Part shown: positions 8,870 through 25,551 of the stretch, in pieces
Position numbering within the stretch: position 1 is the first letter of the stretch
Layout: each line of letters starts with the position of its first letter
Assembly (NCBI GenBank): GCA_026014585.1
Contig: JAOZIA010000022.1
Coordinates: 62,001 to 126,000, forward strand
Reading direction: 5' to 3'
Source of the DNA: Candidatus Bathyarchaeota archaeon
GTDB taxonomy: Archaea > Thermoproteota > Bathyarchaeia > Bathyarchaeales > Bathycorpusculaceae
Length of the DNA: 64,000 nt
Made by a program: the position numbers and the translations under genes
The notes under the pieces: model-generated
Told to the model about the DNA's origin: nothing
Databases searched by the model: none
What the model saw: the letters and a program-made list of their open reading frames with translations, nothing else

Positions 8870-8880
8870 GAAAAGGAAAG

Positions 8881-9912: not shown

Positions 9913-9969
9913 TTTTTCACTTCCTTTTCAGTTTATTTAGTGCTCTTTTTGTCATTGCACCGTTAAGTG

Positions 9970-10120: not shown

Positions 10121-11212
10121 TTACAAATTGGGAGCTTTTGCCATGGGATTGTATAACGGTTTATGTTGAACTTCCCTTGGCAATTTTAATTCCACCCATT
10201 GCTGAGCAGCGAAACCTACGCCGACTCTCAACCAGAGTGATATAAGTCTGCTCAGCATTGTAACGGCAATGCTTATCCCTTCAGGGATACTCATCGCTTG
10301 GAACGTACTTATCATGATTATTTCAGGAGCACCAACTTCGGGCACACCTATTGGTATTGATTTAACGACTAATACTATTGAACAAGTAACGAAAATAACT
10401 GTCCAAGACACGGGATATCCTAAAGAAAAAAAGACAACGTATGGAACAGCAAGCCCTGAAAACCAATTCAATAATAGCAAAAAAGTCGGTAGAATTAGTG
10501 TTTTGGGTTTATGTCCAAATTCTTTCATTGAGTCATGGAAAATTTTTGTCGCGCTCAGGGCTTCTTGTTTGAGGTAATCAAATTTTTGTTGCCATCTGCC
10601 TCGACATATGAGTTCCCCTGCGTGAATTAGATAGTTAATTATTTTTGTGCCCCAGGTTTCTTTCCATGAAATCACCAATAGTACACAAGTGCTTGAGGTT
10701 ATAGCAACGATGAAAAGTATGCTCAAAGTTAAGATCATGGGGTCAATTTTGGCGGTGGTGGTGTAAAGAAAAGTTATGCCTAAAAGTAATATTATGACGT
10801 TGATGGTCATCCCCAAGATTCTTTGCATAACAACTGATGCAACAGTTTTGCCACTTAACCCATTTTGTTCTTTGTTAACCAAATACACCCTACATAAATC
10901 ACTGCTTATAGATTCGGCGGGGACTACAATATCCATAAATATGCTGTACCATGTGTAAAGAAAAGACCGCATGGTTGAGATTTTGACTTTAAGGGCGCTA
11001 AGTAATGCTCTCCATGAAAGGGCATAGAAAAACACTTCCGCAAGCCCCAGAAATATAGCTACAGAATAGATAAGTGGATTGGCGGTTTGCAATATAGTAA
11101 CAACTTCAAAAAAGTTGACGTTAGAGAAGAGAACATAGAGAATTAATGCAACTATACCTATCAGAGGTAGCAGCACTGTTTTGCCGGTCCATTTCAGACG
11201 GGTTGCATTCAT
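10121..11212 (-). CDS. Flippase-like integral membrane protein (UPF0104 / LPG synthase TM-domain family)
   Basis: The 363-residue protein has about eight hydrophobic segments and the family hallmark region around residues 95-115 (VVPAESISSDLCRVYLVNKE). Members of this family (PF03706) include the membrane domain of lysyl-phosphatidylglycerol synthase and archaeal proteins next to glycosyltransferases; they are thought to flip or handle lipids. The function here is unknown. It is transcribed in the same direction as the secreted-protein genes, but the shared promoter element is absent; a TATA-like CATATAAA lies ~75 bases upstream of the ATG. Confidence 0.75.
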   Translation of the reverse strand: MNATRLKWTGKTVLLPLIGIVALILYVLFSNVNFFEVVTILQTANPLIYSVAIFLGLAEVFFYALSWRALLSALKVKISTMRSFLYTWYSIFMDIVVPAESISSDLCRVYLVNKEQNGLSGKTVASVVMQRILGMTINVIILLLGITFLYTTTAKIDPMILTLSILFIVAITSSTCVLLVISWKETWGTKIINYLIHAGELICRGRWQQKFDYLKQEALSATKIFHDSMKEFGHKPKTLILPTFLLLLNWFSGLAVPYVVFFSLGYPVSWTVIFVTCSIVLVVKSIPIGVPEVGAPEIIMISTFQAMSIPEGISIAVTMLSRLISLWLRVGVGFAAQQWVELKLPREVQHKPLYNPMAKAPNL

Positions 11213-11331
11213 ATTATCGAGTCAGACCTTTAGACTTATCAGGTAGTAATGGAAGGATATCGCTCTTAATTAGCCTGAATTGTTTATATGATAAGGCACT
11301 CAGTTTACTTAAGCCCCTTTTACTGATGTTA

Positions 11332-11643
11332 TTAGCTATTATTTTTGCTTGTTTTCACAGTTTTTGCTTGTATGTCTCTTATTGCTTCGTCACCTTTTAA
11401 AGTGAGTTTGTAAAATTTTATGCGACCAAATTCAAGGCTCATTATTAGGTTTTCTTTTATGAGACAATGAAGATGTTTTTGGATAGTCCACCAATCAAAA
11501 TCTAATTCCTTTGCAATTTGATTACAATTTTTTGGTCCCGAGAGTAATGTTGCCAGAATCTTTTTTCTTGATTCAGCGCCTCTGGAAAGGCTGAGAATAA
11601 CTAAAAAGGTAGTTTCGTAACTACCTCTTTCAATCTTACTCAT
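11332..11643 (-). CDS. Winged-helix transcriptional regulator (ArsR-like)
   Basis: From the ATG at 11643 the product is 103 residues: a winged helix with RKKILATLLSGPKNCNQIAK as first helices, LDFDWWTIQKHLHCLIKENL as recognition helix region, and a wing (FGRIKFYKLT). I prefer this ATG because GAGGCG lies 8 bases upstream; an in-frame TTG at 11760 would add 39 residues. It is the shortest gene in the secretome island. A nearly perfect copy of the shared promoter element lies upstream, so it may control itself and the island. Effector is unknown. Confidence 0.7.
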   Translation of the reverse strand: MSKIERGSYETTFLVILSLSRGAESRKKILATLLSGPKNCNQIAKELDFDWWTIQKHLHCLIKENLIMSLEFGRIKFYKLTLKGDEAIRDIQAKTVKTSKNNS

Positions 11644-11794
11644 GGTTGCGCCTCTGGTATCGCAGTAAAACAATTCAGGTGCTTTTTTAACTCTTGGAAC
11701 TTGAAAATGTGACAAATATGTAAGCCTCTCTTTTTGTGCTTCCTTAATCTCATATAGCAAGTAACCGTTTCTAATTTATAGCAAAAAGCTGTTT

Positions 11795-11836
11795 AGCTCT
11801 ATGTATTAGGACAACTGTACAAAATCATAGTACAGA
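11795..11836 (-). promoter_or_regulatory. Shared regulatory element, copy 1 (before the winged-helix regulator)
   Basis: Read on the minus strand, this has the dyad CTGTAC-N9-GTACAG followed at once by TTGTCCTAA and ATAGAGCTAA. It matches the element at 15441-15482 in 39 of 42 positions by my count. TGTACTA and TGTCCTA begin 21 bases apart, two helical turns, suggesting two binding sites on one DNA face. Confidence 0.7.
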
Positions 11837-11878
11837 ACAAAAAGAAAACGCCCTTTTAATTAAGAAAGTAAACATGAC

Positions 11879-12382
11879 TCATTTAGTAGGTTTCCTCTTT
11901 TTTGAGGCAATATTTACAGCTAATCCAATCAGAATTAACAGACCACCTAATATGGTAAATACTTCTCCGAAAAGAAACTTGTCTGCTTCCCTGTTTTGCA
12001 AATTATCTCTCTGGAACTGAACGCCTACAGGTATGGGGCTCTGTTCAGAGCCTTGATTAGTCAAATAAACATTGTAATCACCGCGCATCCCAAAGTTTAC
12101 CACTAAAGACGTGGGAGTGACTATGTCCTGATCAATTAACGTTTGACCTGCGGGGTCGGTTACCTTTACATGAACAGGTAAAGTTACAGCGTCAGGAATT
12201 GCTCCTGAAGGCGGCTGCTGCGTAGCGGCACTGCCTGAATAACGGAAGTAACCAACAGTTAAATTACCCTCATTAACAGGGGGCGCCAATATAACATAAT
12301 TGAAGGTTTCGCCAACGCCCACTTCCCCAGATGAATAAATTGCATTTTCTGGGACATGGGGCGACCAAGAATTAAGTAACAA
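11879..12382 (-). CDS. Membrane-anchored protein at the end of the ABC-2 operon (start uncertain)
   Basis: The protein has an extracellular beta-rich domain and a C-terminal membrane helix (FTILGGLLILIGLAVNIASK) ending in Lys/Arg. The TTG at 12382 is the only standard start in frame, but it cuts through an N-terminal hydrophobic stretch. The frame stays open upstream to a TGA at 12440-12442 and encodes RIGTVALIVGLILLLNSW, which reads as a signal anchor. The true start may therefore be a rare codon such as the ATA at 12430, which overlaps the permease stop, or ATT. The short spacing places it in the operon with the exporter, so it probably serves the same export or immunity process (inference). 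Confidence 0.6.
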   Translation of the reverse strand: MLLNSWSPHVPENAIYSSGEVGVGETFNYVILAPPVNEGNLTVGYFRYSGSAATQQPPSGAIPDAVTLPVHVKVTDPAGQTLIDQDIVTPTSLVVNFGMRGDYNVYLTNQGSEQSPIPVGVQFQRDNLQNREADKFLFGEVFTILGGLLILIGLAVNIASKKRKPTK

Positions 12383-12426
12383 AATTAAGCCAACAATTAA
12401 CGCGACGGTGCCAATTCTTGTTAGGT

Positions 12427-13227
12427 TTATTCGCGTAGTTCAAACCTCCTGGTGAAGTAAATGTACATTGGAATTAGAAATATCAGCGCATAAACTACGG
12501 ATAACGCCAGAAAGTTCCACGTTGGCAAGGTGCTTTCAAGGGTTCCGTTTGTGAACGTTAAACCGAGTACGCGACCTGTTGCTATAAGCGGAGCTTTAAA
12601 CGGTGTAAGAACTAGATAGTTAGCGAACTCTCCAATGGTGTCCACCCTAAGGGTTGTTATGTAGTATGCTAAGAACCCGATAATCATGGCGGTAACTGCG
12701 GAAGGAATCGTTCGCTTAATAATCAAGGCTATCAGCACTGCTAAGCCGCCGTAGAACATGGCTGCCAAAAACAGTATAGGAAACGCCAACAGGGAAAACT
12801 GTAGTATAGCAAGTACCGTTAAGCCGCTGTAGTAGTTTAAGAAGCTGACAAGTACTGTTACTCCCCATGAGAGAAGTGTTAAAGGAACCACAACAGCAAC
12901 AAACTTTACTATAAAAAGGGATGAACGTGAAACAGGTGCTGAAAGCAATGTCTGCATTAGGCCCTGTTCATAGTCGCGAGCAAAAGACAACGCCAGCAGA
13001 ATCCCGCAAAATAAGCCTAAAGGAAGCATCTGAGCAGTTAAATTATCGTAAAGAACAGTAGTTACCAAACTGTTTAGCGTGGTCTGCAGTTCGGTTTGTG
13101 TGACGATTTTAAACAAGGCGGGTGTGGTTGTGATGGATATTAGAACGATAAAGCCTAACGCTAATTCAAGGATTGGTCGTCCCCAAACACGCCTAATTTC
13201 TGCCTTTAGCAGCTCTGTGGCCGTCAC
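12427..13227 (-). CDS. ABC-2 type transporter permease
   Basis: The 266-residue protein has six predicted membrane helices and the ABC-2 layout: a first helix after a short cytoplasmic start, then the conserved SFARDYEQGLMQTLLSAPVS loop (about residues 81-100) that contacts the ATPase. It overlaps the ATPase gene by four bases (ATGA), so the two form one exporter. The cargo is unknown; the small secreted protein at the head of the operon is an obvious candidate for a substrate or for a peptide against which the exporter protects. Confidence 0.85.
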   Translation of the reverse strand: MTATELLKAEIRRVWGRPILELALGFIVLISITTTPALFKIVTQTELQTTLNSLVTTVLYDNLTAQMLPLGLFCGILLALSFARDYEQGLMQTLLSAPVSRSSLFIVKFVAVVVPLTLLSWGVTVLVSFLNYYSGLTVLAILQFSLLAFPILFLAAMFYGGLAVLIALIIKRTIPSAVTAMIIGFLAYYITTLRVDTIGEFANYLVLTPFKAPLIATGRVLGLTFTNGTLESTLPTWNFLALSVVYALIFLIPMYIYFTRRFELRE

Positions 13228-14150
13228 TGCTCTGCTTCCTCCACGGCAACTTTAAAGATTGATTCCAAGTCCCGTCCAGCTGGTTTGACCTCTTCAAGAG
13301 AACCATCCACTTTTGATACTACCCGTGGCAGAATTTTTTTGAATTTCTCGCTATCGTTGGCTATGACAATGATTTGGTTGTCAATTATGGTTGTGTCTTT
13401 GATGCATTCTTCTTTTTTCAGCAGCTCTGCTACCTGTTTTAGTGGTTGAACTTTTATGGTAAATGCTTGGGTGGATGTCTTGTCAAGTAATTGGTTTAGT
13501 GTTCCGTTTTTTATGGTTCGTCCTTTATTGATAAGAACAAATTTGTCACAAACCTTCTCCAGTTCGTGTAGTATGTGGCTTGAAATTAGGAAAGAGAAGC
13601 CCTCTTTTTTGAGCGAATTAATTATCTCAATCACTTTAGCTCGTCCGATGGGGTCAAGATTTGATGTGGGTTCATCAAGAATTATCAATTCAGGATTTCC
13701 AAGAAGCGCATGTGCTAATCCTATTCTCTGGCGCATACCTGCAGAGTAACCGCCAATTCGCCTGTTTTGGGCTTCGGTGTCAAGTTCAACCAGCTTTAAA
13801 ACTCGTTTGCTCTCGCTTAACGGGTCGGAGAGCCCTTTGAGTTTTGCCATCAATTTTAAGTGTTCAATTCCTGATAAGTGCTCATAAAATGCGACTTTTT
13901 CATACAAAATCCCGGTTTTGCGCCTTATTTGTAGGGATTGTTTCCAGCAGTCGAACCCAAACATTTCTGCGGCGCCTGCATCGGCTTTGATTAAGCCTAA
14001 GCTTAGTTTGATTGTGGTGGTTTTGCCTGCTCCGTTCGGTCCTATTAGGCCGTTGGTTCCTTTGTATATTTTGAAACTTAGACCGCTTAGTGCTTTGGTT
14101 CCAGAGCTAAAGCTTTTTTCTAAGTTGTTAAATTCGCCTAAAGCTTGCAA
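13224..14150 (-). CDS. ABC transporter ATP-binding protein
   Basis: This 308-residue ATPase has Walker A GPNGAGKTT (about residues 38-46), a signature GYSAGMRQR, Walker B LIILDEPTSNLD and a switch histidine (SSHILHELEK). A ~90-residue C-terminal domain follows, as in drug and bacteriocin exporters of the ABC-2 class. Its gene starts 5 bases after the upstream membrane-protein gene and overlaps the permease gene, so they are translated together. Confidence 0.88.
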   Translation of the reverse strand: MQALGEFNNLEKSFSSGTKALSGLSFKIYKGTNGLIGPNGAGKTTTIKLSLGLIKADAGAAEMFGFDCWKQSLQIRRKTGILYEKVAFYEHLSGIEHLKLMAKLKGLSDPLSESKRVLKLVELDTEAQNRRIGGYSAGMRQRIGLAHALLGNPELIILDEPTSNLDPIGRAKVIEIINSLKKEGFSFLISSHILHELEKVCDKFVLINKGRTIKNGTLNQLLDKTSTQAFTIKVQPLKQVAELLKKEECIKDTTIIDNQIIVIANDSEKFKKILPRVVSKVDGSLEEVKPAGRDLESIFKVAVEEAEQ

Positions 14151-14155
14151 GACGG

Positions 14156-14992
14156 TTATTTCGCGCTCCTTTTCTTATGCGTATTTGGTTTCTGATTGCG
14201 AGATTTTCTGTTTCTTTTACCAGCTTTGTATACTATTATGACAGCAATAAGAAACGCTATCACAGCTGTCAAAGCCAATATGATGGGTAACCAATTGGTT
14301 ATTGTTATTAGTTCAAAATTTAAATTTTTGGAATAAGCAGTCAGTCTAAATATACCGCCTCGAATGTAGTCAATACCCATTTCTTTCAATATAACGTCGC
14401 TAAGTGAAGCTCCTGCATATACGAGAATGCCTGTCTTTGGGTCGAATCCCAGCATTGAAGGCATCTGAGATGTTCCGTTAATTACGTGGAATGATTCTAC
14501 CATAATAGTTTTAATGTATTGACCATCTATGGCGGTGAGCGGTTTTGCTGTTCGACTAATTATGTTTCCAACAAGTTGCCATTCATTTGTTTCTGTTAGG
14601 AGGATGTCTCTATCTTTTGAAAAAAAATCTGGAGAAATTACAAATATGGATGGAACAGAGTCAACCAATAATCTATTTCCTGTGAAGTAGCCTTCTGCTG
14701 TCGTTTCTTTAGAAAAAGAGTCTCCTTGAATTGTGAAGTTTATTGTACAGTTGTTTGCTATTTCGGAGATTAAGAGGATCAGCTTCAAGTTTTTAAATGA
14801 GCTGAAACTTCCATTTGTAAATGATAAAATACCAATGTCATCACCATTTTCTGTTATTGATTCTAACTCGACTGAATACGAAGAAGGTCTCTCGATAGCA
14901 CCAGTGATAGGGATAATAGAGGTGAAAAAAATGGGTAATATTAAACAAATGCCCAAGAGGCACAGTTTAATATTTTTGTTTAAATGTACCAC
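14156..14992 (-). CDS. Membrane protein with large extracellular domain, in the ABC-2 operon
   Basis: I place the start at the GTG at 14992: it overlaps the end of the small secreted-protein gene by 13 bases, GAGGG lies upstream, and the product opens with a signal anchor (LCLLGICLILPIFFTSIIPI). A longer frame starting at 15058 lies inside the upstream gene. A beta-rich extracellular domain of ~200 residues with several Asn glycosylation sites follows, then a second helix (LPIILALTAVIAFLIAVIIV) and a basic tail. No family is recognised. Its position between the secreted protein and the ATPase suggests a role in export, processing or immunity. Confidence 0.65.
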   Translation of the reverse strand: MVHLNKNIKLCLLGICLILPIFFTSIIPITGAIERPSSYSVELESITENGDDIGILSFTNGSFSSFKNLKLILLISEIANNCTINFTIQGDSFSKETTAEGYFTGNRLLVDSVPSIFVISPDFFSKDRDILLTETNEWQLVGNIISRTAKPLTAIDGQYIKTIMVESFHVINGTSQMPSMLGFDPKTGILVYAGASLSDVILKEMGIDYIRGGIFRLTAYSKNLNFELITITNWLPIILALTAVIAFLIAVIIVYKAGKRNRKSRNQKPNTHKKRSAK

Positions 14993-15387
14993 CAGTCGCC
15001 CTCGCCGTGATGTGCTGGATAGCTTGGATAAGCCCATGCGTCTGCATAGCCGTACCATGGATTATCGAAGGTCGGATAGAAGTTACCTGCTTCATACGCT
15101 TCGCAAGCATAAGCAACTTTGATATTGCGTTCTTCAATCATACTATAGGTCTGGAATACGCCTGGTGCATACCCTGGGTCGCATGTTGAAACTTCCCAGT
15201 TAATGTTGCCTGTTTGGTCATCCCAGTAGACATTGACATAAGCAGCGACTCTTCCGTACCACGAACCCTGTATGTCTACGTCTTCAGTCATCGGTCCAAC
15301 TTGAGTTGCCTGAACGAGTCCTACTGAAAGCATTGCTGAAGCAAACGCTACAATCAGAAAGGCATTTAACAATAGTTTTGAGTTCAT
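14980..15387 (-). CDS. Small secreted protein at the head of the ABC-2 operon
   Basis: The 135-residue product has a signal peptide (KLLLNAFLIVAFASAMLSVG, cleavage after QA) and a mature part of ~108 residues that becomes strongly aromatic at the end (YGYADAWAYPSYP, then GDWWYI). Two Cys residues could form a disulfide. It is the first gene after a strong copy of the shared element and is followed without gaps by a membrane protein, ABC ATPase, ABC-2 permease and another membrane protein. That layout recalls bacteriocin operons such as those of lactococcin 972, though I see no sequence match. GAGGAAAAG precedes the ATG. Confidence 0.7.
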   Translation of the reverse strand: MNSKLLLNAFLIVAFASAMLSVGLVQATQVGPMTEDVDIQGSWYGRVAAYVNVYWDDQTGNINWEVSTCDPGYAPGVFQTYSMIEERNIKVAYACEAYEAGNFYPTFDNPWYGYADAWAYPSYPAHHGEGDWWYI

Positions 15388-15440
15388 TTTTCTTTTCCTC
15401 TACTTTTTGGAGCAATGAACGATAACTGGAAAAGTTACTT

Positions 15441-15482
15441 AGCTCTATACATTAGGACAACCGTACAAAATCATAGTACAGA
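15441..15482 (-). promoter_or_regulatory. Shared regulatory element, copy 2 (before the secreted-protein/ABC operon)
   Basis: On the minus strand: CTGTAC-N9-GTACGG, TTGTCCTAA, ATAGAGCTAA. It differs from copy 1 at three positions and lies ~55 bases before the ATG of the small secreted protein. It is probably an activator or repressor site joined to the core promoter. Confidence 0.7.
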
Positions 15483-15543
15483 GAAAAGAAAAATTCTTGC
15501 AACTCATTTTTGCTTAACAGACAAAAACTATTGTGATACCGCT

Positions 15544-16893
15544 TTAGCCTGTTTGCTTCCATGGAAACGAGGGAATCGGGAAAGAAGGAAGAGGCGAAAA
15601 ATTAAAAGTAGGCAACGGAGTAAACGAAGGCCAAGGTGCAGGCAACAGAGAAGGCAAAAGAGTTGTGTCGTTCCAATAAAGTAAAGCGGAATAGCCACAC
15701 GCGTCTATAGGCTGCAAGTTGTCATCGTATATTATGTCTAACTTATCACCGTATTCTTGAAGTAGACTGTTAACGATTACGCTTTGGTTAAAGTTGTCTA
15801 CTTCGTTTATTGATTGCCAAAGACCCCAGACCTTGTCTTGAGGACCACGAAATCCATAGGCGTAGCCGTAGGGAAGAACATATGCGGTACGTTCGCTTAC
15901 AGGATAACTATTTCGGGGATGAGTTTTTGCGTATTCCCAAAACCGTTGCATTGCCTGCAGATGCTGAGGCTGCAAGATGCCCTGAGTGTAGTTTTCATTA
16001 GAGTTAAATATGGTGATGTACTTTGCGCCGCTGTTATAAGCGTAAACCATATCAGCGTAGAGGTCATCGCCCGATTCAAGGTAAGGTGGCTTTGTGTAAG
16101 TGTAGGTGATTATTACTCCCCAGTCTTTGTTTTGCATCTGAGCTGCACCTCTGCATAAAGCAACGTTAAGCGGTCTGCTGTTGTTCCAGCCGAACTCTGC
16201 AAAAATGGTGTCGTATCCGCCTTTATAGTCGAACCAGTAAAGCACGTTGTCTGAGGTGAAAAGCGGGTACTTCTTTGTTGAGTTAATGGCGTCTAGAACA
16301 GAGTTGTGCAGTGCGTTGTTGAGGAGGGTTTCGTATTTGGATGTAGCGGTGGTATAATTCGTTACATAAGAATTTGTTTCACTAACTACATTGCTTTGAC
16401 CTGAGGGAGCTTTTATCAAGATTACTGTGCCGCCGGGCCAATTATCCAAAATGTGGGCGCCTGGCTCATCAATAACAGGATGCAGGAAGCCCAAGAGATG
16501 GTCGCCCCAATTGGCTTGGGCTACCTCCAGCCATTGGGCAGCTTGAGAAACAAAATCAGGGTTTGAGCTATCGCTGACGTTTCCAAATGTATTCGGTATG
16601 AAACTTAGGAAGGACAAACCGCGGTCATAAGCATGCTGTAAAACGTCGTTGAGGACGGTGGAATTGTCGGTAATGCCTGTGGTTCCGACCACAAACAAGT
16701 TGGTGAAGCCGCTGACTTGATCGATGATACTTTTAGCCTCGTCTGGTCCCGCTGCGGTGCAGTAAGCCATGTCGACGCCAACGTAGACATCAAGCGCTTG
16801 TGCCGCAGAATTGTTCGTTAGAGTGCTATATAGAAAAACCATTGAAACTAATAGCAAAGAAAGCAGTACAACACTTATTGCCTTACTTTTCAT
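15544..16893 (-). CDS. Secreted TIM-barrel-like protein, possible glycoside hydrolase
   Basis: The 449-residue product has an N-terminal signal segment (residues ~8-27) and ~390 residues whose alternating pattern suits a (beta/alpha)8 barrel: DVYVGVDMAY at the first strand, FLHPVIDEPGAH in the middle with possible catalytic acids, and FAEFGWNN and VIITYTY later. The C-terminus is Pro-rich (PSFTPLPTFNFSPLPSFPIP), like a linker or wall spacer. Family membership is not certain. It is preceded by copy 3 of the shared element ~35 bases before the ATG. Confidence 0.6.
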   Translation of the reverse strand: MKSKAISVVLLSLLLVSMVFLYSTLTNNSAAQALDVYVGVDMAYCTAAGPDEAKSIIDQVSGFTNLFVVGTTGITDNSTVLNDVLQHAYDRGLSFLSFIPNTFGNVSDSSNPDFVSQAAQWLEVAQANWGDHLLGFLHPVIDEPGAHILDNWPGGTVILIKAPSGQSNVVSETNSYVTNYTTATSKYETLLNNALHNSVLDAINSTKKYPLFTSDNVLYWFDYKGGYDTIFAEFGWNNSRPLNVALCRGAAQMQNKDWGVIITYTYTKPPYLESGDDLYADMVYAYNSGAKYITIFNSNENYTQGILQPQHLQAMQRFWEYAKTHPRNSYPVSERTAYVLPYGYAYGFRGPQDKVWGLWQSINEVDNFNQSVIVNSLLQEYGDKLDIIYDDNLQPIDACGYSALLYWNDTTLLPSLLPAPWPSFTPLPTFNFSPLPSFPIPSFPWKQTG

Positions 16894-16928
16894 GGTGCAT
16901 TCGTTTGTTTACTGAAATAGAAATACAT

Positions 16929-16970
16929 TAATCTACGTTTTAGGACACCTGCAAATTATAATTACATAGA
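16929..16970 (-). promoter_or_regulatory. Shared regulatory element, copy 3
   Basis: On the minus strand this reads TGTAATTATAATTTGCA, then GGTGTCCTAAAACGTAGATT. The TGTCCTAA block is exact and the upstream dyad is weakened. It lies just before the TIM-barrel-like secreted protein. Confidence 0.6.
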
Positions 16971-17055
16971 AAAAAACTTCTTGCAATTATTATTTTGGCT
17001 TAAAGAGCAATTGGGGAAAAAATAGTGATTATTCTTTTTCGTACACTTATGCTGG

Positions 17056-17943
17056 TTATGGTTTGGTGTGTTCGCTAAGCGTTGTATCTGTGGTTAAATG
17101 CATCGTATACTCTATTGTTTCTGACTGGTACGAAATGGTTTCTTGCATTGAAGCTTTAATCTGCCGCATCGTTCCGTATTCCATGAAAATCTGATAGGTT
17201 ACATTGATATCCATGTTTGTTTGAACATCTAGACTTGGGATGCCTGTTGAGGGTTTGTAGCTTAATTTTAGGTCGTTACTGGTTATGTCTATTCTGAAAA
17301 CATGATATGTACCCGCAGGAACTGTTAGGTCTTCGATGCCTGCAAATGTCATTGTCAATTCTCCGGTCATTCCCATGCTTGCAACCAGGTTTGGATAGGG
17401 TATTGTTATTGTGTCGCCTACTTTGACTTCGGGTTTACTCAGCAGTTGGGTAAGGTAAGACGCGCTGGTCATACTTGTGTTTGGAATTTCCTGAGATGCG
17501 CTTCCCAAGTTAAGGAGGTAGGTGGAGTATCCTGTTTTGTTCATTTTTTCAGTCATCGAGTAACTGAAGGGGGTATCGTTTAGTGTGAATGTGTGCGTGT
17601 GGTTTAATGTGTAGTATTCGCCATCAAAATCCACCACCTCTATGGTTTCAGTGGAGTATACAGTAGCATTGGTGATTGGTTACATACTTGCAGTCGGTTG
17701 AGTATTTTGTGTTTCGTAAGTTGCTGTTATTGTAGTGTCATATGCCATTTTCTCGCCCACTGTATACTCAACATTAAGCGGGATTGCTGCAACTCCTTGA
17801 GGAATAACAAAGGCTACAGCGATTATTACCACTGCTATTAAGGCGATTGCAGCATAGATTTTTTTCCCAAACCACTTGCTACCGCTCTTAGAATTTAAGG
17901 AAGGATTATGGTCCTCTGAAGAAATATTCTGTAATTTGAGCAC
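17056..17943 (-). pseudogene. Membrane-anchored exported protein, interrupted by an in-frame TAA
   Basis: A GTG start with an excellent ribosome site (GGAGGTAAAAGT) begins a frame that encodes a cytoplasmic segment, a membrane helix (IYAAIALIAVVIIAVAFVIP, about residues 30-49) and the start of an extracellular domain (NVEYTVGEKMAYDTTITATY). Codon 88 is TAA (17680-17682). The same frame stays open beyond it for 208 codons and continues the domain (VDFDGEYYTLNHTHTF, FRIDITSNDLKLSY). One base change or sequencing error accounts for the break. The intact protein would have ~295 residues. Copy 4 of the shared element lies upstream, so it belonged to the same regulon. Confidence 0.65.
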
Positions 17944-17991
17944 ACTTTTACCTCCAATTATCCACTATAGCTTTTAAACCATAGGAACCTA

Positions 17992-18023
17992 CTTATTTCT
18001 ACAGTTTAGGACGCTGTCATAGA
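17992..18023 (-). promoter_or_regulatory. Shared regulatory element, copy 4 (weak upstream part)
   Basis: On the minus strand: CTATGACAGCGTCCTAAACTGTAGAAATAAG written in parts as CTATGACAG, CGTCCTAAA and TAGAAATAAG. The downstream block is well kept while the GTAC dyad is lost. It stands ~50 bases before the GTG of the interrupted gene. Confidence 0.5.
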
Positions 18024-18076
18024 CCCTCCCGCTCTAATTCGAATGCATGAACTTAACGATACTTACTAAAAAGAAT

Positions 18077-18808
18077 CTATGGCAAAACCGTTTCAATGAA
18101 AGGGACATAGATTGAGTATGACAGCTCGCTGTAGGGAAAGTTTATTTGTACGTATGAACGGTGCCCGTCAATGTAGTCTACTGTGAGATTACCCAAATCA
18201 ACGGTTGCTCTATCATTAATTATGCTTGGTGTGGTTGAAAGGAGCGGTAAAGTCGAGAATGCTACGTGGAAATTAATGTCGACACTTAGGGTTAGGGTGT
18301 ATGACGTATTACCGCTTGTGTTTATTAGCGATTCTATATCGTCCAGATTAATATCAAACTGGGTGAGTTCTGCCTCTTTGTCTATGTTGCTATGTGGAAT
18401 GATTTGGCTGAGATTACCTTGATGTAGGGTCACCTTAACATTATCTACTGTGCCAAACAACTCGGAGTAAACGGGATAATCGAGGGAAACAAGCGGGTAG
18501 CTGAAAATATTTTGAGAATCGTTTGCCCACATGACAATGCCGTCTAGCATAGAAATGGTTGTGATGTTGCCAACATAGAGGCTATCTACGAGTCCGTTAT
18601 CTCTTAGCATTGTTTCACCATCTGAGGCAATTGTGATATTTGCATATTTCACAATCATGTTTCCATCTTCATCGAAAGCAACACAGCGGTCATTACTTAA
18701 CCAAATAGAAATCGAATCATTTACTGGGTGAGGGAAAAAGTAGAGTCCAGCAAATGTTCCTAAAGCTATACATAGAATTAATAGTAATCCGGCAATTCTT
18801 TTCATCAT
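18077..18808 (-). CDS. Exported protein of unknown function
   Basis: The 243-residue product starts MMKR followed by a hydrophobic segment (IAGLLLILCIALGTFAGLYF) that can act as signal or anchor. The rest is beta-rich with many N-glycosylation motifs and has no recognised domain. It runs in the same direction as its neighbours, but the TGTCCTAA element is absent upstream; a hairpin (18878-18905) lies there instead. Confidence 0.6.
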   Translation of the reverse strand: MMKRIAGLLLILCIALGTFAGLYFFPHPVNDSISIWLSNDRCVAFDEDGNMIVKYANITIASDGETMLRDNGLVDSLYVGNITTISMLDGIVMWANDSQNIFSYPLVSLDYPVYSELFGTVDNVKVTLHQGNLSQIIPHSNIDKEAELTQFDINLDDIESLINTSGNTSYTLTLSVDINFHVAFSTLPLLSTTPSIINDRATVDLGNLTVDYIDGHRSYVQINFPYSELSYSIYVPFIETVLP

Positions 18809-18877
18809 TATCCTTCTACTGAGTAAGTGCCTTTATGTTAATATCCTTTTAATCAAAAAAATTTAGATTCTTAAAAG

Positions 18878-18905
18878 ATGAGAATGAACTTCTCGTTCTT
18901 CTCAT
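18878..18905. other. Inverted repeat between two exported-protein genes
   Basis: ATGAGAA (18878-18884) and TTCTCAT (18899-18905) are perfect arms around 14 bases, followed by an AT-rich run. On the minus strand it lies after the 3' end of the 530-residue gene and ~70 bases before the start of the 243-residue gene, so it may be a terminator or an operator. Confidence 0.35.
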
Positions 18906-19042
18906 AGATTTGAAAAATTTTTATATTCTTTTTATTTTAAATTTAGCTTTCTATGACCCTTTACATTAAAATGCCTTGAAGAGTTATAGAAAAAAGTTAG
19001 AGACGTTTGTTTGCTCTATACTTTAATCATTCGAGTGTTGAA

Positions 19043-20635
19043 TTACACCATTATGTGTAGTGCATCAATGTATACACTAATTGCCTGATAGTTGTCGTTG
19101 TAGCCAGCGAGTGACACATATTGGAATTGAGAGCCATAATAACCGCAGTCTATATATGTATTCTGACCTTGATAATTTAGTACCGCCGTACCTGCATAGT
19201 GCCAATTATTACCATCATTAGATACATAGCAGTAAAGATGACCACCATTAAAGCCGCTCTGTGAATCTCCATAAGCGAAGATTCGTCCCTGCGTTGGAGC
19301 ATTCAACTGTACAGTAATCTGACCTGCATCTCCATAGTTTGGTGCGACAATCTGTGCATATGGTGTCCCGTATGGCTGGCCATTTTGTCCAATTATTCTG
19401 GTTGCATAGTATGCATCTCCGCTCCCTGTTAGACGCCCAGATGTTGTCACGGTTGTTGCCCAGTATTCGTTTTTATAGCAAAGTACTGTTCCACCCTGGT
19501 TCGGTCCATAGTTCCAGGAGTCAACTAATATTATTCGTTGACCTTGCACTTGATAGTTATAAACGACTTGGCTTTGACTGTATCCTGAATATTCAAATGT
19601 TCCTCCAATGTTAACGTCTCCTGAGAAGAAGGTCCATTGTCCAGATAATGTCACTCCAATGTCAAATGACCAACCTGACCCTGAGAAGTCCTCGATTACT
19701 TTTGTAATTTGTTTTGTCTGATAAGACGGTGTATCAAGAGTTACGAATTGATCGCTACTTTGGCTGGGGGGTTTATACATTGGCGAGGGGCTATCATACA
19801 CGTAATAAGCCGATGACGGATACATATACTCAGCGCTCCAAGTTTCAGCATAATCTCCCGCTCCTAGGGGTACCCAATACCAAAGACAGTATGCATAGTC
19901 GAACATTTTGTATACAGTTGCGCTTTGTCCGTTACTCAAATCAGGCATATCAACAACAGATGCTTGGGAAAAGCCTGAGCTACCATAGACTCCGAGAGGA
20001 CCACCATTAAAACTGGTCATAACATTGATTCCAGTTGTAAACCCTAATCTAAGGTCAGTTGTTACGCCCTCAGTTGAAAATACCTGCCCGATTTCAGTGG
20101 GATATGAGTCGTATGGAACAGAGTCTAGTAGAACGTATCCTCGAGTGATTGCATAGTCGCCGTCAGTTGCTTTTGATGTTGAGACTGATATTGGAGAACC
20201 CATAAAGGGCCATGACGTTAGATTCTCAAATTTTTGACCTTGAGGGTCTGTCCAGTTTTCAGCAACGGGCTTAAGGTTAAGTCTTAAAGAAATCGTTTTA
20301 CCAATTTCGTCATCAGTAACATTTACTTTAGCTAAAGCCCACCCAAAATTTGGATGGTATGCGCCTATGTGATAGTAACCTGCTTCGAGCTCAAAATGGG
20401 TTTCTTCTGCTTTGGATGTTTTCGTGATATCTGTTACAGTTATTGAATCTTTCTCAAGTGGATTCTGAATAATATAGACTATCGCATCAGTGACCTCTAT
20501 TGTTTCGCTTTGAACACTTATTACTATACTTACCTTCTGATTTTTAGAAGGCAGGCTATTAGCAGCAGCCGAGGAAAGCAAAGTACAAGAAATTAAGCAC
20601 ATAATTAAGCAGACTGTTACATTTTTTTTATTCAT
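19043..20635 (-). CDS. Large secreted protein with N-terminal carboxypeptidase-regulatory-like domain
   Basis: The 530-residue product has a signal peptide (cleavage after SAAA/N at about residue 26). Residues ~30-120 look like a CarboxypepD_reg/transthyretin-like beta-sandwich (VTDAIVYIIQNP, HFELEAGYYHIGAYHPNFGW). The middle contains aromatic-rich beta structure (YCLWYWVPLGAGDYAETW), and the last ~120 residues resemble a galactose-binding or discoidin-like jelly roll (WHYAGTAVLNYQGQNTYIDC). It is likely cell-surface or extracellular and may bind polysaccharide; this is inference. Copy 5 of the shared element lies ~55 bases upstream. Confidence 0.65.
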   Translation of the reverse strand: MNKKNVTVCLIMCLISCTLLSSAAANSLPSKNQKVSIVISVQSETIEVTDAIVYIIQNPLEKDSITVTDITKTSKAEETHFELEAGYYHIGAYHPNFGWALAKVNVTDDEIGKTISLRLNLKPVAENWTDPQGQKFENLTSWPFMGSPISVSTSKATDGDYAITRGYVLLDSVPYDSYPTEIGQVFSTEGVTTDLRLGFTTGINVMTSFNGGPLGVYGSSGFSQASVVDMPDLSNGQSATVYKMFDYAYCLWYWVPLGAGDYAETWSAEYMYPSSAYYVYDSPSPMYKPPSQSSDQFVTLDTPSYQTKQITKVIEDFSGSGWSFDIGVTLSGQWTFFSGDVNIGGTFEYSGYSQSQVVYNYQVQGQRIILVDSWNYGPNQGGTVLCYKNEYWATTVTTSGRLTGSGDAYYATRIIGQNGQPYGTPYAQIVAPNYGDAGQITVQLNAPTQGRIFAYGDSQSGFNGGHLYCYVSNDGNNWHYAGTAVLNYQGQNTYIDCGYYGSQFQYVSLAGYNDNYQAISVYIDALHIMV

Positions 20636-20690
20636 TTTTTCACCTCTTGCAAGTTAAATCTTGCAAGCTAATCTCTGCTGATTAAGAGTA

Positions 20691-20736
20691 GTTATTTCTA
20701 TATTTTAGGACACTATCACAAAAAATTTAGAACAGA
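20691..20736 (-). promoter_or_regulatory. Shared regulatory element, copy 5
   Basis: On the minus strand: CTGTTCTAAATTTTTTGTG, then AGTGTCCTAAAATATAGAAA. It aligns with copies 1 and 2 along the whole length with one extra T. Its AAAATATAG may double as the TATA box. Confidence 0.65.
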
Positions 20737-20786
20737 ACTCCAATCACGATTGTTAATGAACAAAGAAAAAAGAGAAGAGTTTCTAT

Positions 20787-21731
20787 TTAGTTTTGTACCC
20801 AGGTTTGCCAGTTGTAGCTTAAGGCGCCCATTGTGTGGGATTCTCGTACTGGAGCATTTGCGCTAAACTGGGTGCTTATAGCGTTTGTCCAATAGGACCA
20901 GCCTTGTGCGTTGTGTAGCCAGTTCCGATAAAAGACGGCATTTGACGCATCGTTTGTAAATGTTCCGCTGTCACTGAAGATTTCTTTTTGGAAGCCGCCT
21001 TGGACATACAGACTTGGGAGATGACCGCTTCTTACCCATTGATAATTAATCCAGATGTCATAATTGTAGCCATTGCCATCTGAAGTTCCATCTAACATTA
21101 TAACATAGGTGTCTGCTGCACTTGATGCTGTGTTCTTATCTGCATAATATGACCAGCCACCCTCATCGTAGTCATAACTATGCCACTTGTAGGTTTCTCC
21201 ATAGTTGTGCGTGACCAGCACCTCGGTCCAGCTTGATAAGTCACTTAAATCACCTAGCTGCATCGTTACATAATGGTACAATGTTTGCTCTGATCCAACG
21301 TTCATAGAACCGCAAATCATCTCAGAACTGATGCCAGTCCAAGAAGCAGAACTAGTGCGCATTACCGAAACTCTATCAACCCAGCGAAGAGCAGTTTTTC
21401 CATCAGAAGCTACACTTTGCGTTCGGGCGGGCATTTTAGCAAGTTCCTCCGAAGTTAGCGTTCTTCCAATCCATGTTGCACCAGTTTTAGGGTACCAGCC
21501 CATGTTTAGTTTCTCAAGTTCAGCGGTTATTTGTTCAGTGTTTAGCCCTTGTTCTTTTAGCTCTTGGATTTTTAATGTGACTGGGTCAACAAAGTTTTCG
21601 GGAGGTTGCCATTGTTGATTTTGAACTGCTAAAGTATTAGATTGAGCTGCTACTGTAAGAAACATCGAAAAAAGAAGCGAAACCGCGAGAAATGCTGCTT
21701 TAATGCAATAAGCTTTTTTCTTAACCATCAT
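20787..21731 (-). CDS. Secreted protein of unknown function with N-terminal pro-like segment
   Basis: The 314-residue product begins with a signal peptide (AAFLAVSLLFSMFLTVAAQS). Residues ~45-90 form a helical, charged segment (VTLKIQELKEQGLNTEQITA, LTSEELAKMP) that looks like a propeptide. A mature domain follows, rich in Trp and Tyr (YKWHSYDYDEGGWSYYADKN, NYDIWINYQWVRSGHLPSLY), as in extracellular beta-sandwich proteins. No known family is recognised. GAGGTG precedes the start, and copy 6 of the shared element lies ~40 bases upstream. Confidence 0.65.
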   Translation of the reverse strand: MMVKKKAYCIKAAFLAVSLLFSMFLTVAAQSNTLAVQNQQWQPPENFVDPVTLKIQELKEQGLNTEQITAELEKLNMGWYPKTGATWIGRTLTSEELAKMPARTQSVASDGKTALRWVDRVSVMRTSSASWTGISSEMICGSMNVGSEQTLYHYVTMQLGDLSDLSSWTEVLVTHNYGETYKWHSYDYDEGGWSYYADKNTASSAADTYVIMLDGTSDGNGYNYDIWINYQWVRSGHLPSLYVQGGFQKEIFSDSGTFTNDASNAVFYRNWLHNAQGWSYWTNAISTQFSANAPVRESHTMGALSYNWQTWVQN

Positions 21732-21769
21732 TTTTTCACCTCACTTGGGCGTAAGAGCTATCAACATAA

Positions 21770-21802
21770 CTATTAATTTCTACAATTTAGGACACCTGAC
21801 TT
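21770..21802 (-). promoter_or_regulatory. Shared regulatory element, copy 6
   Basis: On the minus strand: AAGTCAGGTGTCCTAAATTG followed by TAGAAATTAATAG. The TGTCCTAA and TAGAAAT blocks are exact; the GTAC dyad is not evident. Confidence 0.6.
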
Positions 21803-21816
21803 GATTGGCTATCCCT

Positions 21817-22272
21817 TTATAGGGCGCCTTTAAGCCATACTCTACTTGTTTCATAACAAAAAATTATAAGAGCAATACACGTAATCGCGATAAAGAAAAA
21901 ATATTCTCTACTAAAAACTGTTGGCTTTAGACAAGTCAGCTCAAGAACCAATGCTACACCCATAAAAACAGAATAGAAAAGGTACCTGGGAATAATTAAA
22001 CGGCTGATTTTTATGCAGCTATCCAAGATTACGCGGTTTATAGCATAATTGCCCAATTCTTTTTTCACCAAGCCCGCATGCTCTAGCTTGGAGAGATGAT
22101 ATTGCACTATTGAGGGGCTACTGAGGTTTAGTTTTCTTTGGATTTCCCTAATTCCAAGGGGTTTATTGGCTTTTAACATAAAACGGTAGATGTCAAGTGT
22201 GGTTCCTTTTAGGATGTCGGTTGATTCCTTAGTCGTTAACCTCAACCTCGAACCTAATATATACTGCAACAA
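21817..22272 (-). CDS. Membrane-bound winged-helix regulator
   Basis: The 151-residue product has a winged helix in residues ~20-80 (TLDIYRFMLKANKPLGIREI, PSIVQYHLSKLEHAGLVKKE) and then two hydrophobic helices (YLFYSVFMGVALVLELTC and YFFFIAITCIALIIFCYE). It would be a transcription factor anchored in the membrane, a layout known in archaea. It closes the secretome island on the right. An operator-like dyad matching that of copies 1 and 2 lies ~40-65 bases upstream of its start, so it may regulate itself and, with the regulator at 11332, the island (inference). Confidence 0.75.
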   Translation of the reverse strand: MLQYILGSRLRLTTKESTDILKGTTLDIYRFMLKANKPLGIREIQRKLNLSSPSIVQYHLSKLEHAGLVKKELGNYAINRVILDSCIKISRLIIPRYLFYSVFMGVALVLELTCLKPTVFSREYFFFIAITCIALIIFCYETSRVWLKGAL

Positions 22273-22310
22273 TTTAAGAGATATCCCTTAGAAATGAATA
22301 AAGTTATCTT

Positions 22311-22338
22311 GTTGTACAAAAATATAGTACAAAACAAC
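22311..22338. promoter_or_regulatory. TTGTAC-N9-GTACAA operator between divergent genes
   Basis: TTGTAC and GTACAA flank nine bases (AAAAATATA), with outer arms GTTGT and ACAAC. The spacing and sequence match the dyad of copies 1 and 2, but no TGTCCTAA block follows. It stands between the membrane-bound winged-helix gene (minus) and the small membrane-protein gene (plus), and could control both. Confidence 0.6.
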
Positions 22339-22393
22339 ATTAAATAGCATCAGTTACTCAGTAAAAAATGTAAACTATATAGAGTCTGAAAAA

Positions 22394-22675
22394 GTGATTG
22401 GACAAAAAACAAAAATGATGATGGCGGTAACTTTAGCTGCTGTGTCTTGTCTGCTAATAGCGGAAATAAGTTACCTTGTTTTCCCCGACCAAACGTCAGG
22501 TCAAGTACCCACACCCCAACCATCGCCTTCAATTATGGAACAACTTGTTTGGGCGATGCTTTGGTTGGGCGTTGCAGCATTAATCTCTTTGACAATTGTC
22601 GGAGCAGTCATGTTGGTTAAAAAGAGAATTAAAAGGGAAGCAGATAGTGGCGCTATTATTGAAGAAAGCAATTAA
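22394..22675 (+). CDS. Small two-helix membrane protein
   Basis: The 93-residue product has a signal-anchor-like helix (MMMAVTLAAVSCLLIAEISY), a Pro-rich linker (VPTPQPSPS) and a second helix (MLWLGVAALISLTIVGAVML) followed by KKRIKRE. The GTG start lacks a clear ribosome site; a TATA-like ACTATATAG lies ~20 bases before it, so the message may be nearly leaderless. It is the only plus-strand gene of the island and is divergent from the membrane-bound regulator. Confidence 0.5.
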   Translation: MIGQKTKMMMAVTLAAVSCLLIAEISYLVFPDQTSGQVPTPQPSPSIMEQLVWAMLWLGVAALISLTIVGAVMLVKKRIKREADSGAIIEESN

Positions 22676-22716
22676 CTCGCATGCTAATGGATTTAGTTCT
22701 GAAGAGAATGTTTTTG

Positions 22717-22763
22717 CTGTCCTACGGTTTTGTACATTCGTGCTAAAGCATAGAAATAAGTTC
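22717..22763 (+). promoter_or_regulatory. Shared regulatory element, copy 7, in opposite orientation
   Basis: On the plus strand: CTGTCCTACGGTTTTGTACA, TTCGTGCTAAAG, CATAGAAATAAGTTC. It aligns over its length with copies 1 and 2 and ends ~33 bases before a GTG at 22796. The downstream coding region is broken, so this looks like the promoter of a decayed regulon member. Confidence 0.55.
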
Positions 22764-22795
22764 TTTTCTATCGACTCTTACGATTTAACAAAACC

Positions 22796-23262
22796 GTGTT
22801 ATCAAGCAAACCTCAAATTTCTACTGTTGACTTTCGCTCTTTTTGGTCTACCTCCCGTCTGGAGGGTAGAGAGCGGTATCACGAAAACTTAGCAAGGGCA
22901 CTAAACTTGAGGTATTCAGTGGTCGACAAGCCAAACTTAATCGGATCATTTTTCGGATTCTTGATTCAAAAAAGCTACTCACTGTCTACGACCTTTACTT
23001 AGAAATCAGAGGCATCAAAGGATATCGACACACGAAACGGCAAAATATAGATAGACGTGTAAAAGCACTTTATCAGCAAGGTTGGCTAAAGAAAGACGGA
23101 GTTAAACCTGCAAAAGCCCATTTTCTCTCACCCCTCTATAAACTAAGCATCAGAGCACAAGCCGCCATGGCGCTCAACAAAAAAGACCTGAACGCTTTCC
23201 TGCAAACCGCCCCCGAAACAAACCTGCAAGGATTTATTGATTCGCTTTCGGTATGTATCTAA
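22796..23262 (+). pseudogene. Decayed winged-helix gene without an intact start
   Basis: A frame open from 22870 to the TAA at 23260-23262 has clear coding character: SGRQAKLNRIIFRILDSKKL, LLTVYDLYLEIRGIKG, RRVKALYQQGWLKKDGVKPA, FLSPLYKLSIRAQAAMAL. This reads as a winged-helix protein. It has no ATG, GTG or TTG before codon ~101 and is preceded by TAG. A GTG at 22796, well placed behind copy 7 of the shared element, starts a 68-codon frame in another phase, so a frameshift in the 22.88-22.96 kb region is likely. The gene is followed directly (TAA-ATG) by the next one. Confidence 0.5.
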
Positions 23263-23604
23263 ATGATACGTCTCTTTTCGGTGCCTTTCAAAGAGATGAG
23301 CGCTTTGCGGGGGCAGATAGTTTTTATGGTAAGCCTGAGAGTTGGGCAAGGTGATATCTGCTTGGTTAATCTTGTCGAAGACTGGATGGTCCTTGAGCAA
23401 TACGCTGGCGAAAAACGCGGATTCTACCAAATCATAGGCGTAGACGGAAACTTTGAAGTACGTGTGCAAACTGGCCGAGTCGGCTACATAAAACAGTTCA
23501 AACGAGCTGATGATCCACGGCTAATCAAGATTTTGGATTTCTGCAAAAAACACCACTACATCCAAATCATCCAACGCATCCGAGGAGAAAAATTCTTCAA
23601 ATAA
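23263..23604 (+). CDS. Small protein of unknown function before the integrase
   Basis: The 113-residue product starts at an ATG that touches the stop of the broken winged-helix gene. An internal ATG (MSALRGQIV) could be the true start. It has a beta-rich middle (WMVLEQYAGEKRGFYQIIGV) and a basic helical end (RLIKILDFCKKHHYIQIIQR). No family is recognised. It lies in a run of four genes leading to the recombinase and may belong to the same element. Confidence 0.45.
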   Translation: MIRLFSVPFKEMSALRGQIVFMVSLRVGQGDICLVNLVEDWMVLEQYAGEKRGFYQIIGVDGNFEVRVQTGRVGYIKQFKRADDPRLIKILDFCKKHHYIQIIQRIRGEKFFK

Positions 23605-23635
23605 CCAGCAAGGCACCAGGTTGAGGCGAGAGGGA

Positions 23636-24127
23636 ATGGCTGAACTAACATTAAACGCAACACAACCCAAAAAAAGTGTTGGACCAAAAACAGGAGGCAC
23701 ACCCCATAAAGCACCCTCAAAGGATGCTGGAACAAGCCCCCTAAACTCACCTCAACCCCTCAAACAGCTGATATTTGTCCGCTATCTAGACCATGTCTTG
23801 TACAATCGCAGCAACGCGCTATCGATGAAACCTCAAATCAGAGAAGCCGTAGGCTGGATAATCTACAACTGCGAACGGTACATCATTTTAGCTTGGGACA
23901 GAGACGCTGATCCGCCCACACTTACGGGTGGCGACCCCAAAGCGTCAGGTTTAGTGCTGCTTAAAAGCGACATTTTGGAGTTGCAGCTCCTCAAAACTTG
24001 CCCGCAACTACTACAAAAAAGTTTTAACTGGAATTTAAATTGCAAACCAACTATACAAGAAGGCGAGTATGCGTTCCGACCAACGGAGCGAAAAACTCAC
24101 TCCTCAAAAGGAGATAAACCGAAATGA
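23636..24127 (+). CDS. Unknown protein coupled to the recombinase gene
   Basis: I chose the ATG at 23636 because GAGAGGG lies directly before it; a TTG 15 bases upstream is also open. The product (163 residues) has a low-complexity N-terminus rich in Pro, Lys and Thr and then a folded part (QLIFVRYLDHVLYNRSNALS, AVGWIIYNCERYIILAWDRD). Its stop overlaps the recombinase start (ATGA), so the two are translationally coupled and it may act as an accessory factor for integration or excision. No homologue is recalled. Confidence 0.55.
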   Translation: MAELTLNATQPKKSVGPKTGGTPHKAPSKDAGTSPLNSPQPLKQLIFVRYLDHVLYNRSNALSMKPQIREAVGWIIYNCERYIILAWDRDADPPTLTGGDPKASGLVLLKSDILELQLLKTCPQLLQKSFNWNLNCKPTIQEGEYAFRPTERKTHSSKGDKPK

Positions 24128-25551
24128 TAGAAAGAACTGCCTTAGCCCCCGCTATAACCCGCAACCGCCAACTCTCCGTTGAAGAACTAAAAAGCCTAAA
24201 TCTCCCATTGACTTTCCAAGGCGACCTAGTGATAATCTACAATAGCTTAACAGGTTGGAAACTCAAAAAGCCAGTAATAATCGAACTCAAAAACCTCTTA
24301 GACGCCAAAGAAAAAGGCCTCGTCGACTACATCATCAGGTCCTGCCTAAACGACCGCCCAGGAGTAATTCCCTTCATATTTGACAACCAAAGCATGCTAA
24401 AACTCGCCCGCCATTTCCTACGCCATCTTTCAGGCTCATACAGAAGCTGCTTAACCTACTCCGTCAACGTCAAACAATACGCAACCTGGCTCGGATACAA
24501 ACCAGACCTAATCATCCAAGACGCCAAACCCGTCGGCGCCATCCCCGACCCACTAAAAGTCCAAAACCACTGCGCATTCCTAAACGATTACTTAGCCGAA
24601 CTCCAAGACAACGACCTCAAACCAACAGCCGTTAACAACTGCATAAAAGCCGTAAAAACCTTCTACCACGTAAACGGCATAGAAGTTAAACTCAACGAGC
24701 GCCTCCCCCGAAAAGTTGCCTACAAAGACAGAGCCCCAAAACCCGAAGAAATCACCGCAATGATAGACAAATCCACAATCAGAGAAGCTTTCATCATAGC
24801 TGCTTTAGCAACAGGTGGATTTAGAGAAGGAACCTTCTGCAAACTCAAATACCGACACGTCAAAGAAGACCTAGAAGCCAACATAGTGCCAATACACATT
24901 CACGTCGAAGCCCAAATCACCAAAGGAAAATACCATGACTACGACACCTTCCTAAATGCGGAAGCAAGTTACCTGCTTAAAATGTACATAGCTGACAGAA
25001 GACGAGGCAGCAGATACACGCCTCCAGAAGAAATCACCGACGACTCACCGTTAATCCGAAGCGACCACAATGCTCACAAAATCGTTGGCGTTAGCGAAAA
25101 AACCCTCAGAAAAATCGTGCATACAATCGCTGTTGCAGCTGACGTTTCAAAAAAGCTCCCAGACAGTTGGATGTACAGCGTTAGAACCCATAGCCTACGA
25201 AAATACTTCCGAACTCAAATGAGCGCCTCAAAAATAGACAGCGAAATCATCAAATATTTTATGGGCAAAACCATCGACACCTACGAAGACGTCCAAAGCT
25301 TAGGCATCGAGACGCTAAGAAACCTCTACACCTCAGCAGGCTTGGCGATTAGACCGAAAACTCAAGTCAACAGAATTGAGCAACTCAAAGAAATCATACG
25401 TGCATGGGGACAGAACCCTGAAGAAATCTTAACTAAGGATGCGCTTATGCGGGGAAACATCACTGAGCTCCCAGACCAGGTACAGAGTCATCAGCTTTCT
25501 GTTCTGGCTGACCAACTTAAGCAGTTGATCAAACGGGAGGTTTCAGTTTAG
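24124..25551 (+). CDS. Tyrosine recombinase (integrase)
   Basis: The 475-residue protein has an N-terminal SAM-like core-binding domain (~residues 90-185) and a C-terminal catalytic domain. The visible catalytic set is R234 (GGFREGT), K267 (TKGKY), H356 and R359 (RTHSLRKYF), K382 in place of the usual second His, and the nucleophile Y387 (IDTYED). A ~90-residue tail follows. The stop lies 36 bases from the 3' end of tRNA-Asn, the classic arrangement of an element inserted in a tRNA gene. The third codon positions are rich in A and C, unlike flanking core genes, which suggests foreign origin. Confidence 0.88.
   Translation: MIERTALAPAITRNRQLSVEELKSLNLPLTFQGDLVIIYNSLTGWKLKKPVIIELKNLLDAKEKGLVDYIIRSCLNDRPGVIPFIFDNQSMLKLARHFLRHLSGSYRSCLTYSVNVKQYATWLGYKPDLIIQDAKPVGAIPDPLKVQNHCAFLNDYLAELQDNDLKPTAVNNCIKAVKTFYHVNGIEVKLNERLPRKVAYKDRAPKPEEITAMIDKSTIREAFIIAALATGGFREGTFCKLKYRHVKEDLEANIVPIHIHVEAQITKGKYHDYDTFLNAEASYLLKMYIADRRRGSRYTPPEEITDDSPLIRSDHNAHKIVGVSEKTLRKIVHTIAVAADVSKKLPDSWMYSVRTHSLRKYFRTQMSASKIDSEIIKYFMGKTIDTYEDVQSLGIETLRNLYTSAGLAIRPKTQVNRIEQLKEIIRAWGQNPEEILTKDALMRGNITELPDQVQSHQLSVLADQLKQLIKREVSV

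Follow-up and report, generated by a model that had tools for sequence, protein, structure and literature searches.

A 45-bp promoter element of exported-protein genes in a Bathyarchaeia provirus and a candidate membrane-anchored regulator

Introduction

What is a repeated promoter-proximal sequence doing in front of a run of genes for exported proteins in an archaeal genome, and which protein reads it? The question is raised by a stretch of 64,000 nucleotides from a Candidatus Bathyarchaeota archaeon (assembly GCA_026014585.1, contig JAOZIA010000022.1, positions 62,001 to 126,000 of the forward strand; hereafter the window), in which a first-pass annotation had described seven copies of an element made of a dyad and adjoining blocks. 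Comparison with related loci makes it likely that this element serves a cargo regulon in a Bathyarchaeia head-tailed provirus as its common operator and core promoter, and that it is read by F1, a virus-encoded winged-helix protein with two membrane helices, acting as an activator. Gene control is still poorly understood in Bathyarchaeia and their viruses.

The element and its confinement to one cluster

Aligned in full register, the copies define an element of 45 bp, TGTMCTA-N5-TAGTACA-N2-TGTCCTA-N5-TAGAAATAAGTA. Two tandem imperfect palindromes of 19 bp, each of the form 7-N5-7, start 21 bp apart, and the second runs into a TAGAAATAAGTA block at the 3' side of the element that resembles a B recognition element (BRE) and TATA box. 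The upstream palindrome is intact in three of the window copies, partly kept in one and degraded in the others (Table 1), and no other TATA box lies between element and start codon as read in the window sequence. All seven copies of the first-pass annotation are present, as is the lone dyad it had placed at the gene for the membrane-bound winged-helix protein; its CTGTAC dyad with separate blocks is also present, and is here refined to a double palindrome with a core-promoter-like block that is longer than was described.

The core GTCCTAANNNNTAGA has six exact matches in the 2.31-Mb genome, 6/6 of them inside this 10-kb stretch, and the same pattern read backwards, used as a control, has none in that genome. 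A sequence profile of the whole 45 bp, built from 24 copies, finds seven genomic matches at E<=0.001; all seven again lie here, and the next match has an E of ~0.4. Rather than being spread evenly over the genome, the matches thus fall entirely within the cluster, which upholds the earlier proposal that genes for exported proteins are controlled together here, as a local regulon with a cis element of its own. A genome-wide regulon is ruled out by the lack of copies outside the cluster, and the structural half of the provirus is ruled out as part of the regulon because its genes carry no element. A scan of IMG/VR with an exact short pattern returned 25 single matches, none exceeding 20 with the 45-bp matrix.

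Genes behind the elements

Among 65 elements collected from related loci, 55 have a gene within 260 bp. An N-terminal hydrophobic segment (signal peptide or anchor) is found in 46 of these 55 genes and in 70 of 312 host genes (22%; Fisher p 4e-18, the related loci not being independent of one another). The distance from element to start codon has a median of ~48 bp in the related loci, within the 30–60 bases anticipated earlier, although the copy at 11790 lies far outside that range (Table 1). Genes that lack a hydrophobic start are mainly winged-helix genes: that of F12, a soluble ArsR-like protein, with its orthologues in four other loci (L147, L155, L157 and L316), each likewise preceded by an element; in L102, a gene from an unrelated winged-helix family; and, at the seventh copy, probably a gene of a third type. 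The expectation that copies would precede genes for exported proteins or regulators is borne out, with one exported gene lacking an element (see below). The seventh copy does point the other way, as had been stated, and it faces a probable winged-helix frame (22870-23262) and not an exported protein.

Two further observations concern these regulator genes. The leaders of F12 and its orthologues are long, with the element 129–151 bp from the start codon (window 11790, L147:11096, L155:7815, L157:7349 and L316:13394), far above the distances at exported genes. The frame at 22870-23262 is related to F9 (L100:6571-6957), itself probably a winged helix, and has no ATG, GTG or TTG at the expected start.

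The provirus that carries the regulon

The setting of the regulon is provirus cargo, not a chromosomal secretome. A head-tailed provirus of 47.7 kb is integrated in tRNA-Asn, and the block in the window forms its right part, as follows from the combination of a tRNA attachment repeat, an integrase and terminase, head and tail genes. The attachment repeats are an exact 19-bp match; they share contig and orientation and lie 47.7 kb apart, and the tRNA-Asn gene adjoins the integrase gene. Between the two sites lie genes for a terminase large subunit, an HK97-type major head protein and tail proteins, identified through PHROG matches (phrog_2, E 1e-36; phrog_267, E 8e-13; phrog_290, E 5e-17) and through Terminase_6N.

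Other Bathyarchaeia proviruses carry the same element. The structural genes of an environmental IMG/VR virus contig of 35.6 kb (G174) and of a provirus in another genome (G011) are 74–89% identical to those of the window provirus, and both come with element-bearing cargo; the existence of so close an environmental virus contig suggests that the provirus may be active in excising and forming particles. In A05DMB-2, a member of Bathyarchaeota from another genus, related cargo stands beside a tRNA-Leu gene and an integrase, and that contig also has a distant terminase. A search of 50,697 phage records found no match to the capsid protein; its relatives occur on 31 IMG/VR contigs at 67–90% identity, and no element was found in 11 whole records or in the loci examined among them, a weak negative given that most are fragments.

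F1 as the candidate regulator

There is reason to think that a single regulator serves all copies of the element, which we regard as very likely, and comparative evidence makes F1 the best candidate for that role, probably the right one. F1 is 151 residues long, and its alignment-based predicted structure (mean predicted local distance difference test score 79) has helices at 24-35, 41-48 and 53-65, a wing at 69-78 and membrane helices at 96-113 and 122-148, with residue 57 falling in the recognition helix. Among solved structures the closest folds are ArsR- and MarR-like, and only weakly so. F1 is present in most element loci, and 13 of the first loci have it, with elements or near them. Across 32 genomes of the genus, close F1 members and strong elements occur together in 10, alone in 1 and 3, and not at all in 18 (p 4e-5).

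The F1 gene also carries the operator-like sequence. One palindrome stands upstream of F1 genes (window 22313-22331), and in 15 loci it is upstream of a TTAAAT-like box; no such palindrome was found upstream of the more distant F1-like paralogues that were examined. The first-pass annotation had attributed control to one of the two local winged-helix proteins, and the comparison points to the membrane-bound one, F12 being itself a target. F1-like membrane winged-helix proteins as a whole form a large family with members in 31 of the 32 genomes (in G000 on C22, C23 and C2), of which just one branch is the close group associated with elements.

Regulator and operator appear, moreover, to have varied together. 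At the F1 gene the fourth base of the half-site matches the one in the exported-gene elements (Spearman 0.90, 23 loci). Where residue 57 is Gln or Glu the half-site base is A or C, with T in 1 of 87 cases, and where it is another residue, mostly small or hydrophobic, the base is mostly T (70/98). Contacts between glutamine and adenine are textbook chemistry, which makes a pairing of residue 57 with this base plausible. Among loci found after the rule had been set, A05DMB-2, an IMG/VR contig and L289 fit it, L276 and L277 fit it in part and L296 does not.

How F1 might act, and the alternatives

In the proposed mechanism F1, encoded by the virus and anchored in the membrane, would bind the palindromes as dimers and would sense something at the membrane. 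Sitting just upstream of the BRE and TATA box on one face of the helix, it would recruit the basal machinery, the TATA-binding protein (TBP) and transcription factor B (TFB), and would thereby switch on the exported proteins, the ATP-binding cassette (ABC) transporter operon and F12 as a second-tier regulator, much as ArnR does at the Sulfolobus archaellum promoter. In the alignment the two palindromes and the TATA-like block are spaced by about two helical turns and one, so that the bound proteins would lie on one face. The positions of the element and of the F1-gene palindrome relative to the core promoter favor activation by recruitment of TBP and TFB, and we lean toward F1 being an activator rather than a repressor. 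Its cue may be an envelope or extracellular signal, as the membrane anchor suggests.

Several observations weigh against this account. The exported gene at 18077-18808 has no element in front of it, and three F1 genes with a palindrome (L248, L252 and L256) have no strong element in the stretch examined. The residue rule is broken by L250, L293 and L296. On the F1 tree, whose deep branches are unsupported, the residue has changed about 1–3 times and the operator 4 times, so the co-variation has seldom been replicated, and independent-pair tests on that tree have one to four informative pairs and hence no power. Finally, the putative BRE is overlapped by the second palindrome, an arrangement that would fit a repressor too.

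This last point leads to the alternative that survives best, in which the operator and F1 are the same and F1 lies across the BRE and TATA box, holding the exported genes off until it is released by an envelope or induction signal. Proteins with related ArsR- and MarR-type folds are often repressors, which is in keeping with such a role, as is the extension of the second palindrome into the TAGAAATAAGTA block. However, it is the upstream palindrome that is intact, and this lies outside the core promoter; that of the F1 gene stands upstream of the TTAAAT box and not on it; and the parallel offered by ArnR is an activator. We consider repression unlikely on this balance.

It is less probable still, and would surprise us, that soluble F12 is the regulator and controls the exported genes as well as its own promoter. 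In favor of this, the F12 gene and its orthologues carry a full element. Against it, F12 is found in only five loci and F1 in most (a count weakened by incomplete contigs), elements occur together with F1 in loci such as L100 and L303, and in L098 and L102 another winged-helix family stands where F12 would be.

The element copies might also be sites of recombination, for cassette exchange or inversion, and not operators: each gene or operon has one copy in its own orientation, an integrase lies 2 kb away and gene content varies between proviruses. This is scarcely credible given that the positions cluster ~50 bp before start codons, that the F1 gene carries the same palindrome, which tracks it, that the integrase has its own tRNA attachment site and that the upstream palindromes are degraded in several window copies. 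That the blocks are simply ordinary core promoter sequence of this archaeon is no more credible and is refuted as a full explanation, since the exact core and the profile match nowhere else in the genome and host upstream regions have other boxes, although the 3' part sits where host TATA boxes sit, ~40–65 bp before start codons, and that block alone may be core promoter.

Cargo and neighboring genes

The features of the locus are collected in Table 1. The exported proteins of the window have no clear Pfam match; one element gene in A05DMB-2 encodes a subtilase. The 530-residue exported protein was dropped as a probe for sister loci because only its C-terminal domain is shared. F6 is interrupted by an in-frame TAA, and its relatives elsewhere (e.g. 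in L160) are a single frame without it, so the window copy is either broken or affected by an assembly error.

Table 1. Coordinates of the regulon and its provirus in the window.
Feature	Position	Strand	Remarks
Right part of provirus	1..25604		Whole provirus C21:39904-87604
F12, soluble ArsR-like winged-helix regulator	11332..11643	minus	Itself a target
Element copy, both palindromes	11790..11834	minus	Before F12 gene, ~146 bp from its ATG
Likely operon	11879..15387	minus	Exported protein, membrane protein, ABC ATPase (13224-14150), ABC-2 permease (12427-13227), membrane protein
Element copy, both palindromes	15436..15480	minus	Before exported gene 14980-15387 and ABC operon
Exported protein F2	15544..16893	minus	
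Element copy, upstream palindrome degraded	16924..16968	minus	Before exported gene 15544-16893
Membrane-anchored protein F6	17056..17943	minus	Frame broken by TAA at 17680-17682
Element copy, upstream palindrome degraded	17990..18034	minus	Before membrane/exported gene 17680-17943
Exported protein, 530 residues	19043..20635	minus	Only C-terminal domain common to the genus
Element copy, upstream palindrome partly kept	20689..20733	minus	Before exported gene 19043-20635
Exported protein F3	20787..21731	minus	Orthologues in several loci
Element copy, upstream palindrome degraded	21771..21815	minus	Before exported gene 20787-21731
F1, winged helix with two membrane helices, proposed regulator	21817..22272	minus	Pfam HTH_20/HTH_5/LexA_DNA_bind; Q57 in recognition helix
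Single palindrome TGTACAAAAATATAGTACA	22313..22331		Between divergent genes F1 and F13
F13, small two-helix membrane protein	22394..22675	plus	Divergent from F1; partner kept in several loci
Element copy, both palindromes	22718..22762	plus	Facing probable winged-helix frame 22870-23262
Tyrosine integrase	24124..25551	plus	Pfam Phage_integrase; PHROG integrase
Attachment repeat, 19 bp	25586..25604		In 3' end of tRNA-Asn (25588-25664); exact copy G000:C21:39904-39922

Further genes of the provirus were noted in passing. A 319-residue protein (2196-3155) has a C-terminal half that by eye resembles a TIR domain (RIFLSHSTRD...), with a membrane helix after it, and is possibly a defence gene within the provirus. 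Two adjoining genes at 7413-8814 resemble, again by eye, a nucleotidyltransferase and an AbiE-type partner and possibly form a toxin–antitoxin pair. Directly after the terminase gene stands a 480-residue ATPase (665-2107) with ABC-like and weak acetyltransferase matches, and a related gene also follows the terminase genes in L163 and L320.

Implications and comparison with known systems

If F1 reads the operator, as is probable, the system would be a virus-borne switch for what the archaeal host displays or secretes. A wider picture can be offered tentatively, and may well prove wrong: that a group of temperate archaeal viruses has its own membrane-sensing switch, which would turn on exported proteins in the lysogen and so remodel the host surface or surroundings on an envelope signal, and that regulator and operators changed specificity together between lineages through one recognition-helix residue. 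Here a specific regulator–operator pair, with a predicted residue-to-base contact, is named from sequence in widespread sediment archaea. It provides a testable hypothesis for lysogenic conversion in archaea, with virus-encoded exported proteins under virus-encoded membrane control, and the 45-bp element is a simple marker for such cargo in other genomes.

Head-tailed viruses and proviruses of Bathyarchaeia have been described, with integrases (PMC10848311, PMC11705971). They share with the present provirus the head-tailed genes and integrases, integration into tRNA genes (PMC11705971) and, in Fuxivirus, reported winged-helix proteins; a word search of the main texts of both papers found neither 'promoter' nor 'secreted'. 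Among cellular systems, EarA of Methanococcus is a winged-helix activator with repeated sites upstream of a surface-structure promoter (PMC6396743, PMC13286277). The likeness lies in a winged-helix protein at repeated sites before such a promoter, whereas the EarA motif is TACATA in four copies and EarA is a host gene.

The closest parallel is with ArnR and ArnR1 of Sulfolobus acidocaldarius. These membrane-bound helix-turn-helix proteins, each with two membrane helices, are activators that depend on a pair of inverted-repeat boxes, TCGAC-N5-GTCGA, situated before the core promoter of flaB (PMC6396743, and Lassak et al. 2013 cited there). F1, too, has an N-terminal DNA-binding domain and two C-terminal membrane helices, according to its predicted structure and Pfam; two inverted repeats with a 5-bp spacer lie upstream of the core promoter in both systems, here with the sequence TGTMCTA-N5-TAGTACA twice, 21 bp apart; and the targets are cell-surface or exported proteins in both. 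There are also differences. F1 lacks a HAMP or sensor domain, having one short helix (80-91) between the wing and the membrane helices and no such Pfam match; its second box runs into the putative BRE, whereas the ArnR boxes lie at -43 to -84; and the F1 gene and its targets are provirus cargo, the targets being many and not pili. The earlier suggestion of a system matching no known one therefore stands only in part, the arrangement being closely parallel to that of ArnR. Lacking a HAMP or sensor domain, with another box and borne by a virus, F1 is not classed as an ArnR, and the likeness is claimed for the way of working alone.

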